A DNA stretch of 64,000 nt from NCBI GenBank assembly GCA_025558075.1, contig JAHLKF010000013.1:372001-436000 (forward strand), given 5' to 3'. The notes beneath the pieces are model-generated. The model saw nothing but the letters and a program-made list of their open reading frames with translations, did no database searches and was not told the origin of the DNA. Positions 6,401 through 14,110 of the stretch are shown piece after piece (within the stretch, counting starts at the first letter, position 1; each line of letters opens with the position of its first letter). Origin of the DNA: Gaertneriomyces semiglobifer (taxonomy: Eukaryota > Chytridiomycota > Chytridiomycetes > Spizellomycetales > Spizellomycetaceae). Made by a program: the position numbers and the translations under genes.

Positions 6401-8440
6401 GCGGTCTAAGGAATAAGATGAGCTTCTCGTGTAAGGTATATTTACAAGACAATGGCATACCCGCGCCATCAAAGGTGGCACCGAGGAAACCGATAGTTAC
6501 ATCGTTTCCACGCAAATCCCTTGATTCGAGCTCTAAATCAGCCTTCCATACTCCTCGCATTGGAGGCGCCGGTACTTTATGCCCGTCCTCATCTAGTACC
6601 GGCATATATCCAGCATCGTACAGTCGCGCTTTCTCTATACGTGATAACGCAGAGCGTGGACGGTCTGGGGCAGTCGGCGAGTAATAGGAGGTTATGTGTA
6701 GTTGCTTTGAGGAAGGAGCGGTTGCTGGGTCCAACAGCGAATGGTTATGCGCGAGTTGATCTGATTGCACGTGGTAGTAAGGCGCATTGTCATGAGGTGC
6801 CTCATTGTCAGACTCCAATGGAGAGGTGACGGCATCGACAAGGCGTTTGGTGGAAGCTTGCTGGGCGACCGGCGAAATTGGTTGCACGCTCTGAGTCGCA
6901 ATCGCGGACTGCACCTTTGTTGATTGGGTCGATTCCTGTACTTTCTCAATTCCATTCAACGTAAACAACACCGTCGGTTTGTTACCAACTTCCATATCTT
7001 CATCATCTTCAGAATCATCATGCTCATCCATCAACGGTCGATACATTGGCTTTCCAAACGGATTCGGACCAAGTTCATTGAACATGGTCAGATATTGCTC
7101 AGTGCCATCAGGCGCATCTGGTATCCATGCGACCCATCCTATCCAAACATCCACTATCTCTCCTTCATCCCTTTCTTCGCGGCCACGACTTCTGCTACGG
7201 GAGCGTAACCGTTGCACCCATCCTTCTTTCTGCGGCTGGCCACGCCGGACAATTTGACACCTGTACTCGACCCCTATACATAATGCTGCACCTCCAATGG
7301 CTTTTAAATCCAATCGTCCGTTGAAAGTCAATCCAGCCTCATCTGGCTCAAGGGTGAGAATGGTTTGATTGATAAACGTATGAGTGTTGTGGAAACCAAT
7401 GTGCAATCTACGTTCCAAAATCTGTGGGATTGAAGTAAGGGGTGCATTATGAGCAGACAAGGATGTGATGAGAGAGTCTTCAAAGACGCGACGAGGATGG
7501 GGCAGTTTGACGCTGATCTACAACTACCATTAAAACGGCATTTACGAGGAGAGAAGTAGAAGCCATACGCACCTTAGACACTACCGCTGGTAGCAATTGC
7601 GGCCGTTTCTTCTTTGTTTTTCCTGGTATATGGGCGACGAAGACGTTTTCAGGCCACAGAAAGCAGAACGGTCTTATGTCCGGGCGAGGAAAGAAGCGAT
7701 ATGAGATGCTGGCGCCAGGAATGGTTGTCAATGCTGCCATTTGCTGAGGATTCTTGATAAACGCAAGTATTCGAGGGGAGCCGGCGTAGATGGGAACACT
7801 GTGGAGCAGACCAATATTTGATATGAGAGGTGAAGAATTAGCGTAAATGGTCGCCTTACCTGTGAAAATCATATTCAGCCGTCTCTGATGTGTCATTCCA
7901 TGCACTAGCAAAGCTCAGCCCGTTCCTTCCCGGATCGAAAAGATGTAGGAATGCCCAACCGGCCGTAACATACTCGTGTTCGTCAGGCGTCCCCACTGAG
8001 TGCCTCAGTTAATGTCCGCGTGTAAGACTTTTCGAAAATAAATACCTCTACCTTGGAAGCAAACTTCAATAACAGCGCCGACGGCCGAAGACGAAGCTCT
8101 GGAATGTACGTATAATGTCTCCATTACTAATGTTAGGATCCACGGCAATTGTGACGACCAGCCAGTAGGAGCATACCGCATCGTCAGAACCCTTCCATGT
8201 CTTTCCGAACCATCCGGCACCTTCGCCTGAGCTATCTCCCCATGCATAAAAAGTGCATCTGGCGGCTCTGCCGTTTACTACCACGCCAGGGCGAGGAGCT
8301 GTGTTCTTCAACGCATCGACGCGAATCGTCAAGTTGTATGGGTAGTATTCCCCTGGCTTGGCAACTTCTACATGGGAAGGCGTCGGAATCACCGATGCAT
8401 TCTCCACAAATGGTGCAAACCAAGATTTAGCGGATTGCAT
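3432..8440 (-). CDS. NPHP4: Nephrocystin-4 (ciliary transition zone), 13 exons, 1440 aa
   Basis: NPHP4 is a scaffold of the ciliary transition zone, acting with NPHP1 and RPGRIP1L. Exons in coding order: 8440-8177, 8118-8052, 7995-7860, 7798-7573, 7517-6461, 6405-6160, 6104-5824, 5786-5508, 5448-4256, 4196-4085, 4022-3914, 3846-3734 and 3671-3432. They total 4323 bases in one frame; human NPHP4 is 1426 aa. Diagnostic matches along the whole length include ILERRLHIGFHN, FFTYQFYNFP, LTIDVWDGDSLL, LRQGLKAV, DVDSELQALL, VRCNTPEVIC, LDINCVLGQ, KAFEITVPRG and SYTNPYPSRK. The start at 8440 fits the family N-terminus and has ACC before ATG; an upstream in-frame ATG at 8512 is possible. The intron 5823-5787 would be only 37 bases, so that junction is uncertain. 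The intron 6159-6105 uses a weak GTTTAG donor. The presence of this gene implies a flagellum. Confidence 0.93.
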
Positions 8441-9238
8441 GGTGGGTTTCCCTCGCGTAGCTGAGAAGACTGAAATTGACGCGTGCTGGTTGATCGCCTC
8501 TGCGCGCACCATCCTTTGTTTGTGGCACTTTGTGGCGTTAGAGTTACTCTATCTATAAGCATGGCTGTGTCAGCATCGGCCCTCGGGTCACGTGGAATCT
8601 TATCTGCGGATCTGTTTTGGGCGAAGCAGCGTCTCCGAAATTGGAACATCCTCCGCGCGCGTCTCTGCTGCCGACACCAATCGGAATGAGTCTGTCGACT
8701 TATTGTGGCTGTGCCATCTGCTTACGGCGGCCAATTGGAAATGGGCAGTCCGATTTGTGAGGACCTCACCGGCCATCGGAATGTCACACTTTTTGGCAGA
8801 AATGTTCCTTTTCAAGTAAACACGTACGCACACACACACACAGCATATTACATATACACATCAGCAGATAGGACATAGGCATATTAGTGCGTAGGCTTAG
8901 GCTTAGAAGAAAGAAGGAAGAGATTATTTTGCGCGCATTCCCGGCGGAAGCGGGTTCCCTCTGGCAAGAAGCACACAGTATTATATAGCTACTGCGTTAT
9001 TTGCGACACACGTCTTTGATCGAACAAACCCACCCGGAAGACGGCATCTACCACCAACGCGGATCAAGCAAAAAGTGCTCGGTTCCTAATACGTTGAAGA
9101 GCCACACTTGTATAAATGCACTTTGCCTGTTGTCGGTCCCTCGACTTGCTCACACCATCGTCTACATCTCATCACATTGACAGCCTTGCTACCAAGGCTT
9201 TGACATCCGCCGTTCAACTCTCTTGTCGCAGACACATC
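8441..9238. other. Region between NPHP4 and phytochelatin synthase
   Basis: I see no gene in about 800 bases. It holds the divergent promoters of NPHP4 and the phytochelatin synthase gene, a CA microsatellite at 8828-8843, and a TATAAAT box at about 9112-9118. That box overlaps the first in-frame ATG (9116) of the synthase frame, which argues against using that ATG as the start. Confidence 0.5.
8828..8843. repeat. CA dinucleotide microsatellite
   Basis: A short run of CA repeats directly upstream of the NPHP4 5' end. No function is implied. Confidence 0.8.
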
Positions 9239-11284: not shown

Positions 11285-11764
11285 ATGAAGTTCAACGTCA
11301 CCCTTCTACTCGCCACACTCTTGGCATTCCTTCGCCCCGTACTCGCGTGGGAAGATAGCTATGGCCCTATCTCTCCAGGGTACTTTTCTATCATCATAGC
11401 TCCGTCGTCCGGCAGTCTCTACGTCTGGATTATGACGGAGGGCAACCCAAAACCTAATGCGTCAAACCTTAAGTACGCCTCTTGCCGGAACTTCGGGAAC
11501 GAGTGGACGTCGTTGACTAGCGAGCTGCCTTGGACTGTGGATATTCATCCGTATGTGTTTGCTGCCACTGACGGCGCCCGCTGTCCCGCTGACGCTCGTG
11601 ATGTTTGTAGGGGCAACATGTGTAACACATCGAATGAAGATAACCTTTGGATCAAGTACTCCAACCAGTTCTTGAACATCCCTACTGACAGCCGATGCGC
11701 CGTGTATAGAGGGTTTCTCGGCTTGACCCGAGACGTCCGGTGCATCATTCCAGAGCGGCCATAG
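11285..11764 (+). CDS. Small secreted six-cysteine protein, 159 aa
   Basis: I do not recognise the family. Residues 1-21 form a clear signal peptide (Lys-Phe start, long Leu/Ala core, probable cleavage after PVLA). The mature protein of about 138 residues has six Cys spread over its length (SCRNF, ARCPAD, DVCRG, MCNTS, SRCAV, VRCII), enough for three disulfides, and one or two N-glycosylation sites (NAS, NTS). It is intronless with a good TATA box. The composition fits an extracellular or wall-associated protein; an effector-type role is possible but not shown. Confidence 0.75.
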   Translation: MKFNVTLLLATLLAFLRPVLAWEDSYGPISPGYFSIIIAPSSGSLYVWIMTEGNPKPNASNLKYASCRNFGNEWTSLTSELPWTVDIHPYVFAATDGARCPADARDVCRGNMCNTSNEDNLWIKYSNQFLNIPTDSRCAVYRGFLGLTRDVRCIIPERP

Positions 11765-11918: not shown

Positions 11919-13651
11919 TTATTTAAATTCAGGAACCTGAATAAGCTGCATCTTCGTCGTTGTCCCTTCCAGGAAACCAATGTGCTGTCCAGAAGTCACA
12001 ACGGCAACTTGACCGGGTTGGCAAAGACCCAGCTCCACCGCGTATTCTAAAGATTTAAGCGTTAAGACAAGCGCGTGCGGCATTTTCGCATTGAGGTACT
12101 TACTCAGTGTGTCCTGGATAACTGTCTCACCGGTTCCAGGATGCCAATACGGCACCAAACCAAAGTTGATGTTTAGCTGCCTAGCGGTTTGTTGAACCAT
12201 TGTGGTAGCAACAACTGGAACAGGCGGACGGTACTTGGCCACCAAACGCGCGGTGCCTCCCAACTCGGTAATGCATACAATGATAGCGGCATTGACCTGT
12301 CTTGCAGACATCACTGCCGAACTGGCAATAGACTCTGAAATTGGAACGGGCTTGGGAACTGAACGCATAGTTTTGGCTTGATATTCAAGGTAGTTGTTGT
12401 TTTTTTCCGCCGTGTGGGCAATACGACGTGCGGTTTCCACAGCATTGAGAACGTAGGAGCCCACAGCAGTCTCACCGGAAAGGATGACACCGTCTACACC
12501 GTCCATGACAGCGTTCGCAACGTCCGCGGCTTCAGATCGTGTGGGACGGGGATTTGTCCGCATCGACTCGAGAATCTGGTTTGCGACGAGGATCGGCTTT
12601 CCAGCCAAGTTGGCCTGTGAAAAAATTCTCGTCAATAAGCATACAACCTCCTTCGTCAAGTAAGCAACGTACCTCGCGGATCATCTTCTTCTGCGCTATA
12701 GTCACGTCCTCAACGTCCACTTCTGCGCCAAGGTATCCACGGTCGATCACAATACCATCCGCCATCTTCAAAATGCTCTCGTAGTTATCCATTCCGCGTC
12801 TGTTTTCAATCTTGGCCAACAGCTTGACCTTGTTATTTCCCAACATAAGGCGAACCTCTACAACGTCATCAATGTTCCGGATACAGGAGATGGAAATAAA
12901 ATCGACATCATTGTCGAGGGCGAACAGGATATCAGCTCTATCCTTGTCCGACACAGCGGGCAAATCGGAGATGACGTGCGATGGGAAGTTGATTCCCTTG
13001 TTCTCCCCCAAAACACCTGACAATCCAAACAAATTCATTAACGATGGAACGCACCAATTGCCGTCCAGTCCTAGACACTCACCAGAATTATCAACAGTAC
13101 ACCTGATAGAGTTTTCCAACCGTTCCACAACGGTAAAACTCAAAAGACCGTCATCAATGTACATCTTGTCCCCAACCTTGACCAACTCCTTGGTATATGT
13201 GGTAGAAACGCGGGTTTCATCGCCCACCAGGTTCTCATCGTTGACAAAGAAAAACTCCTGCCCCTTCTCCAACTCTACAGCTTGACCACCTTTCAGCTTA
13301 CCGGAACGCACTTTGGGTCCATTGATATCAAGCCATATGGCAACCTCAACGGTAGAGTTGGTCTCCCGCTGATATGATCGAATGTGGGATATGACCTCCT
13401 TGGCAAACTCGTGGGTGCAGTGGGAGAGGTTCAGTCGGGCAACGTTCATACCGCCTTCAATGAGGCGTGCGATCACGTCCTTGGAGCATGATGCTATGAC
13501 CACGAGGAAAGCGCTGTCAGATGGTGTTCACGCCGCGCAGGTGGACGCGACACTCACCTGGTCCAATAGTGCAAATGATCTTTGTCTTCAGAATTTCATT
13601 GGAATTCTTGTCCAGATGCGCAGGGTGGGACCGTCTTGTAGCAGCGACCAT
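11919..13651 (-). CDS. Pyruvate kinase-like protein with altered active site, 514 aa
   Basis: The protein has the full pyruvate kinase fold by sequence: IICTIGPAS start, RLNLSH (51-56), B-domain, LLAKIEN (234-240), [25 protein letters not shown] and a C-terminal allosteric-type domain. Exons: 13651-13558, 13493-13083, 13016-12673 and 12614-11919. The intron 13082-13017 is 66 bases with no in-frame stop, so it is easy to miss. Several residues that are near-invariant in active enzymes differ. The metal-binding Asp in ARGDLG is Tyr263 (DRGYLG). The Thr of ATQMLESM is Asn295 (ANQILESM). DTKGP reads DINGP. Lys237, Glu239, Arg51 and Asn53 remain. It may be inactive or have another role. An ATG at 13729 in frame would add 26 residues with an amphipathic, basic character; 13651 has the better context. 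Confidence 0.88.
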
Positions 13652-14110
13652 GTTTTCACTGCTCCTATGTTCGTGATGGAAAGGGTGTCGAACCGCGTTC
13701 AGGAACTTGCGCAAGGAATTAGATCTCATGAACCAGCCTGCGACAAAAACAAGCTCTCGAAAGAAGCAGAGGATATGTGTATTCTAATAAACGGCAGAAG
13801 CCACGATTCCGACAGCAGAAAGCGACGTTGCCTTTCTCTTCATGCAGGTCTGGTCCACTTACTGGCCAGAGGCTACGTTGATCGATACCTTGCTTGCGTT
13901 TAATGGCGTTTACACACATCGATGTCCTGCCCTAACACCATTTCTCCGACGCGTTTGGGCCCAACACCGTGAATTGTCACTGCTACTGTAATCGGGCTAT
14001 AGTGCAATGACTGTACAGATTGCCGTAGCCTTTCACTTAATTTCCTTCAGCTTAAGTTGCTAATCTAGATATACTAGCTACATAAATCGCGCAAAAGCGG
14101 ATCGAAACCT
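13652..14110. other. Region between pyruvate kinase-like and caprin-like genes
   Basis: About 460 bases with the pyruvate kinase-like promoter and the 3' end of the caprin-like gene. I see no further gene. Confidence 0.5.

Follow-up and report, generated by a model that had tools for sequence, protein, structure and literature searches.

The catalytic Mg2+ of rabbit pyruvate kinase has Glu271 and Asp295 as its ligands. Lys269 and Arg72 deal with the phosphate, Arg119 and Lys206 with the nucleotide, and Met290, Ala292, Thr327 and Met359 line the enol/methyl end of the site. Ser76 is a K+ ligand in this enzyme. A Glu/Asp metal pair at the ends of neighbouring barrel strands is also found in PPDK, malate synthase and HpcH/HpaI. 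Thr327 is presumably the equivalent of yeast Thr298. A work cited by PMC4374775 names the yeast residue a "proton donor" in its title, and an arginine and a lysine contact the PEP phosphate (PMC10338316).

A lysine at position 117 marks K+-independent pyruvate kinases, and E117K-type mutants of the rabbit enzyme are active and K+-independent (PMC8835810, PMC4374775). Leu113, Gln114 and Leu, Ile or Val at position 120 occur together in 77% of the Lys117 enzymes (PMC8835810), and Eukarya are stated to have Glu117 (PMC4374775). At the subunit interface, Arg342 of the Cryptosporidium enzyme reaches the alpha-6' helix of the neighbouring subunit, and its Leishmania counterpart is needed for activity (PMC3467265). 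Drosophila is reported to have six pyruvate kinase genes and, in all, 18 paralogues of carbohydrate enzymes that are predicted or known to be inactive (PMC11836677). Here, we describe a pyruvate-kinase-fold protein of the spizellomycetalean chytrid Gaertneriomyces semiglobifer that, judged from sequence comparison, is very probably a conserved, repurposed paralogue and not an ordinary pyruvate kinase.

The gene and the other pyruvate kinases of the genome

The window, a 64,000-nucleotide stretch of a 20.86-Mb assembly in 66 contigs (contig C13, positions 372001–436000), carries on its minus strand a complete gene of five exons (Table 1). All exons are open, all introns are GT-AG, and the spliced product of 495 amino acids agrees letter for letter with P0001, the NCBI "pyruvate kinase [Gaertneriomyces semiglobifer]", an entry that may stem from the same assembly. 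The preliminary description had located the gene and had numbered Arg51, Asn53, Lys237, Glu239, Tyr263, Asn295 and DINGP (87–91) exactly as we find them. It had also called the splicing clean, overlooking the fourth intron; a 514-residue model that retains this intron fits its reading.

Table 1. Features of the DRGYLG-type gene, in window coordinates. Residues on the right of an equals sign follow rabbit numbering unless stated.
Feature	Position	Strand	Basis
DRGYLG-type pyruvate-kinase paralogue, start to stop codon	11919..13651	-	spliced translation equals P0001
Exon 1	13558..13651	-	spliced translation
Exon 2	13083..13493	-	spliced translation
Exon 3, with K237, E239 and DRGYLG	12673..13016	-	spliced translation
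Exon 4, with ANQILESM and R309	12104..12614	-	spliced translation
Exon 5 and stop codon	11919..12046	-	spliced translation
Intron 4, 57 bp, GT-AG, in frame, no stop	12047..12103	-	its removal yields P0001 exactly
I88-N89-G90-P91-K92 = 113–117; K114 to N, E117 to K (K+-independence signature residue)	13312..13326	-	alignment; PMC8835810
C213 = Phe243 to Cys	12883..12885	-	alignment
K237-I-E239 = kept Lys269 (catalytic) and Glu271 (metal ligand), by the roles assumed for them	12805..12813	-	alignment
D260-R-G-Y263 = Ala292 to Asp, Asp295 to Tyr	12733..12744	-	alignment
N295 = Thr327 to Asn	12579..12581	-	alignment
R309 = kept inter-subunit arginine (human Arg342)	12537..12539	-	alignment; PMC3467265, equivalence to human Arg342 taken from the common numbering

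An in-frame ATG lies 78 bases upstream of the start, at 13729, and would add a basic stretch of 26 residues (window 13652–13729, minus strand) that resembles a mitochondrial presequence by eye. Against a mitochondrial form, the NCBI model has its start at 13651, and of the 42 proteins of the family described below that have a readable start, 26 carry an HP pair in their leader, as does the window protein. A convergent open reading frame of 159 amino acids (window 11285–11764, plus strand) has a start that looks like a signal peptide by eye, and it gave no Pfam match at E <= 0.01.

Both domains of a pyruvate kinase were recognized in P0001, the PF00224 barrel at 345.5 bits (cut-off 30) and the PF02887 C-terminal domain at 85.5 bits (cut-off 28). 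The AlphaFold2 model, built on 20 family sequences, had a mean pLDDT of 84.9 and a pTM of 0.84, with low confidence at residues 1–11 and 475–483. The best 50 of its 480 Foldseek matches at E <= 0.001 were pyruvate kinases (E 5.4e-57 to 3.8e-54), counting one labelled by the gene name PFF1300w alone, which we take to be a pyruvate kinase. Furthermore, the NCBIfam pyruvate kinase equivalog TIGR01064 (cut-off 306) scored five family members at 427 to 449 bits and P0143, the canonical kinase of the same species, at 573 bits. Automatic naming as pyruvate kinase is therefore to be expected; on the sequence pattern set out below, the name is doubtful for this family.

A second, canonical pyruvate kinase had been suggested as something to look for. 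A genome search with the Pfam PK and PK_C profiles found two further genes, both with intact active-site motifs: one on contig C5, from position 121999, encoding 499 amino acids as spliced (LDTKGPEIR, ARGDLG and ATQMLESM), and one on contig C11, at about 7659–9022 (GDLGGPKIR, ARGDMG and ATQMLESM). Because these sites are intact, pyruvate kinase need not come from the window gene in this genome, and the loss of a sole pyruvate kinase is ruled out. The C11 kinase has Lys at position 117, despite the Glu117 given for Eukarya in PMC4374775.

A conserved set of active-site replacements

To characterize the family, three protein searches against sequences clustered at 90% were used, and the best 120 of the 6,439–7,997 matches of each gave 260 different proteins, or 262 with the C5 and C11 products. 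The motif DRGYLG was present in 75 of them and ARGD[LM]G in 186 (the canonical set); one, the partial Rozella allomycis model P0115, had neither, as it lacks this stretch, perhaps through an exon skipped in annotation. Since the family was picked by its motif, the constancy at positions 292–297 in all 75 members holds by construction. What is independent of the selection is the constancy of the other columns and the absence of intermediates: none, such as ARGYLG or DRGDLG, occurred among the 262 proteins, although they may exist further down the search lists.

Six positions have switched in the family: K114N, E117K, F243C, A292D, D295Y and T327N (rabbit numbering, assigned through the alignment of a Lineus sequence with human PKM). 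All six are switched in 56 of the 59 family proteins readable at these positions, and the other three deviate at 327 alone, with Ser. On the other hand, 182 of the 184 canonical proteins readable there have none switched, and two (P0112 and the C11 kinase) have only Lys117. Taken singly, with denominators that vary because many models are partial, Asn114 and Lys117 are each found in 61/61 family proteins and Cys243 in 69/69, Tyr295 in the 75 motif-picked members, and at position 327 Asn in 70/73 and Ser in 3/73 (three Nowakowskiella proteins). Two methionines have changed as well: Met290 is lost in 75/75, with Val or Ile in 73 (Leu in one, Cys in one), and Met359 is Val or Ile in 72/72. Positions 290, 292, 295, 327 and 359 each keep Met, Ala, Asp, Thr and Met, respectively, in 186/186 canonical proteins, both Lys117 sequences included. 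Position 113 is Ile, Val or Leu in 53/61 of the family and position 120 Thr or Ser in 58/60. The Rozella protein, which stands outside these counts, has Cys243, Lys269, Glu271, Asn327 and Val359.

Much of the remaining site is kept: Arg72 (57/57), Asn74 (57/57), His77 (58/59), Asp112 (61/61), Arg119 (60/61), Lys206 (63/66), Ser242 (67/70), Lys269 (72/74), Glu271 (73/74), Ser361 (72/72) and the inter-subunit Arg341 (73/73). The three exceptions at Lys269 and Glu271 are models of 299, 265 and 438 amino acids, the last of which is garbled there. Ser76 is looser, kept in 48/59 family proteins against 181/181 canonical ones. The C-terminal effector region is conserved yet unlike the canonical one (human 436 Gly in 70/72, human 519 Glu in 65/70 and rabbit 522 Thr in 66/67), so regulation has probably changed too.

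These counts bear on several points of the preliminary description. Tyr263 and Asn295, whose conservation in orthologues it had proposed to check, are conserved, and its remark that this is not an obvious pseudogene agrees with the 74 further proteins bearing the same motif. It had regarded the metal aspartate as lost; Asp295 is indeed replaced by Tyr, yet position 292, three residues before it, has gained an Asp that is equally constant. Equally constant, too, are replacements that it missed: Ala292 to Asp (D260), Glu117 to Lys (K92), Phe243 to Cys (C213), Met290 to Val and Met359 to Ile. DINGP, which it listed among the altered motifs, need not be a lesion, since it is part of the switch by which position 117 acquires the Lys typical of K+-independent enzymes (PMC8835810, PMC4374775).

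Could the altered site be a sequencing or annotation artefact, or the local decay of a gene in a single genome? We found no evidence for either, and the intron that had been overlooked leaves the site unaffected. The five open exons, the GT-AG introns, the identical NCBI protein and, decisively, the 74 other motif-bearing proteins leave this explanation a negligible probability.

Could the family, instead, consist of ordinary K+-independent pyruvate kinases that tolerate odd residues, with Asp292 acting for Asp295? The constant Lys117 would fit (PMC8835810), as would the TIGR01064 score of 449 bits, above the cut-off of 306. However, Asp295, Ala292 and Thr327 are unchanged throughout the canonical set, even where Lys117 is present; Met290 and Met359 have been replaced in the family in addition; and a canonical gene is already there. 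Among prokaryotic relatives, the best 80 loci of at least 568 gave 63 ARGDLG, 11 ARGDMG (74 ARGD[LM]G matches together) and one PRGGIG (probably unrelated), with 6 loci without a pattern match, and the family motif occurred in none of the 80. We therefore regard an ordinary K+-independent kinase as improbable. The scan of prokaryotic genome contigs behind these numbers did not use DRGYLG itself but patterns taken elsewhere in the protein, and the absence of DRGYLG from those best 80 relatives also speaks against a bacterial origin.

Distribution, ancestry and constraint

Fifty-two of the 75 DRGYLG proteins come from 48 named organisms, all of them chytrids or monoblepharids among the matches listed; the other 23 are taken as largely metagenomic. 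For Gaertneriomyces, Gonapodya and Hyaloraphidium the lineage was taken from a taxonomy record, Homolaphlyctis was inferred from its JGI code, and the remaining organisms are presumed to belong to these groups. Among the matches listed, a canonical kinase is also present in at least 32 of the 48 organisms, and the other 16 had none under the same name. Conversely, Podochytrium sp. JEL0797 and Mitosporidium daphniae showed a canonical kinase and no DRGYLG protein among these matches. These gaps speak against an even distribution; in Podochytrium and Mitosporidium the family may be absent or lie below the matches listed. No Dikarya, Blastocladiomycota or Neocallimastigomycota appeared among the named DRGYLG matches listed.

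A careful tree of 45 rows, drawn without the C11 kinase, some long rows and the Dikarya kinases, placed 15 DRGYLG proteins and the Rozella protein in one clade (support 100/100), whose stem measures 0.92 changes per column. The chytrid canonical kinases and that of Mitosporidium formed a second clade (100/98), and the two clades were sisters only weakly (84/75). A quick tree of 70 rows recovered both clades and left the relation between them open; the C11 kinase joined P0112 in it, on a long branch. In these trees, the labels "bacteria" and "other eukaryotes" were assigned by the analyst, with P0112 and P0073 among several rows that carry no species name. The Rozella protein groups with three other rows, adjoining chytrid and monoblepharid rows, and the duplication therefore seems older than the divergence between Rozellomycota and chytrids, an age that is approximate because the Dikarya kinases were left out. 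Most likely, then, the sequences reflect an ancient family of single origin, kept through chytrids and monoblepharids and reaching Rozella by the tree. In both trees, P0134 of the glomeromycotan Cetraspora pellucida falls among animal kinases, outside the clade of chytrid canonical kinases, which suggests that the pyruvate kinases of fungi may have two origins.

Of the 32 species with both proteins, 24 were compared, 8 with partial or odd models having been dropped by eye. Over 276 species pairs, the family averaged an identity of 0.650, against 0.779 in the canonical kinase; it was lower in 269 pairs, and its divergence was 1.7-fold faster (median ratio of log identities). Consequently, the fixed site does not come from shared recency, and faster overall change around an altered site held nearly fixed points to selection for that site. 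Within one species, the two proteins share 41–47% identity (24 species).

Eighty columns hold one residue in 98% or more of the canonical kinases. In the family, 62 of these columns keep it as the majority residue (54 at 90% or more, 8 at 70–90%), 15 have a different majority residue (in 7 of them at 90% or more), and only three, columns 113, 329 and 340, have relaxed below 70%. Switched columns were modestly enriched at listed site residues (5/17 vs 5/73, Fisher p 0.019), on a list that was drawn from general background and partly post hoc. By the roles assumed from the rabbit enzyme, the family keeps only the Glu of the acidic pair Glu271 and Asp295, lacks the Thr327 that goes with EC 2.7.1.40, and retains the Lys269 and Arg72 that go with phosphate handling. 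Critical catalytic residues have been lost, as in pseudoenzymes, and the relaxed catalytic centre that is expected, though not obligatory, in pseudoenzymes is not seen (3/80).

Possible functions

Taken together, the residue roles and their conservation suggest that the half of the site that handles nucleotide and phosphate (R72, N74, H77, D112, R119 and K206) is intact, as is the inter-subunit arginine, and that the metal/enol half (positions 290, 292, 295, 327 and 359, with 114, 117 and 243) has been rebuilt, as in a protein that probably has a new job and is not a broken copy. The preliminary description had offered a pseudoenzyme, a regulator of a second kinase, or a form with altered metal or substrate; the pattern favours the last of these, with a regulatory pseudoenzyme second. 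Whether the protein is catalytically active, with metal geometry and substrate changed, seems to us an even question.

How might such an enzyme work? We infer that the residue set was switched on the family's single long stem and was then held. The protein would still bind a nucleotide or phosphate together with a divalent metal, and Asp292 might replace Asp295 as the partner of Glu271, a guess from sequence spacing. Tyr295, Asn327 and the Met-to-Val changes could reshape the pocket so that it accepts neither PEP nor pyruvate but a different substrate, another enol-phosphate or a 2-keto acid being candidates, and Lys117 would provide the charge given by K+ in ordinary enzymes. Standard turnover of PEP and ADP to pyruvate and ATP would then be little or none and would be supplied by the canonical genes. 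The leading reading, at about even odds, is an enzyme that has been neofunctionalised, needs no K+, holds its metal through a relocated ligand and acts on a different substrate; against it, the conserved ligand-binding residues are also compatible with a non-catalytic sensor, and Ser76 is looser than in canonical kinases. The fuller proposal, that this enzyme family branched off from pyruvate kinase early in fungal history, close to the base of Fungi, holds its metal on Glu271 and Asp292 with Tyr at the metal-Asp position and uses a substrate that is not PEP or pyruvate, is offered tentatively, as a little short of an even bet.

On the other hand, the protein could be a dead regulatory subunit, with PEP, ADP/ATP or some effector as its ligand and no turnover, a possibility that we place clearly below even. 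One of the two acidic metal ligands (as assumed above) and the Thr named as proton donor in a title are gone, the inter-subunit Arg341 is invariant, and a canonical kinase accompanies the paralogue in at least 32 of the 48 organisms among the matches listed. Inactive paralogues of carbohydrate enzymes have a precedent in Drosophila (PMC11836677). Such a subunit might sit in mixed tetramers with the canonical kinase and tune cooperativity via the A-A interface; an identity of 41–47% to the partner, low for mixed tetramers, makes this less probable. Furthermore, Lys269 and Glu271, which would be needless in a dead enzyme, are nearly invariant, and only 3 of the 80 columns have relaxed. The near-invariance of these two residues favours the active, relocated-ligand model over a ligand-sensing subunit.

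If the enzyme reading is true, the metabolism of chytrid-type fungi includes, at the PEP node or close to it, a further reaction that is hidden in databases as pyruvate kinase. Because a curated model scores the family as pyruvate kinase, metabolic reconstructions of chytrids may overcount one enzyme and miss one function. The family would be a natural experiment in active-site re-engineering, in which a paralogue swapped its metal Asp, its substrate Thr and a neighbouring Ala together and kept the rest, and it is directly testable because the genomes that carry the gene also encode an ordinary kinase. We found no description of it in the full-text literature on pyruvate kinase in chytrids, Rozella, paralogues and pseudoenzymes, as covered by titles and the opening parts of abstracts among the matches listed, with subscription papers mostly outside.

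Among known systems, the canonical fungal pyruvate kinase (EC 2.7.1.40, for example the C5 product) shares with the family the fold, both Pfam domains and K269, E271, R72, N74, R119, K206 and Arg341; it forms a separate clade, and positions 292, 295, 327, 114, 117, 243, 290 and 359 are changed in the family. The second acid would lie 21 residues past the Glu in the family (E239, D260), compared with 24 in pyruvate kinase. The K+-independent bacterial kinases (PMC8835810, PMC4374775) likewise have Lys117 and a mostly hydrophobic position 113. In contrast to them, the family is eukaryotic, has Asn and not Gln at 114 and Thr or Ser and not Leu, Ile or Val at 120, and has lost Asp295 and Thr327; if counted as pyruvate kinase, it contradicts the statement of Glu117 for eukaryotes (PMC4374775). 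The Drosophila pyruvate-kinase-like genes (PMC11836677) are likewise paralogues of a glycolytic enzyme, and that paper predicts many such paralogues to be inactive from lost active-site residues. They are mostly testis-biased insect genes, whereas the family described here extends through chytrids and, by the tree, to Rozella with one nearly fixed set of residues.
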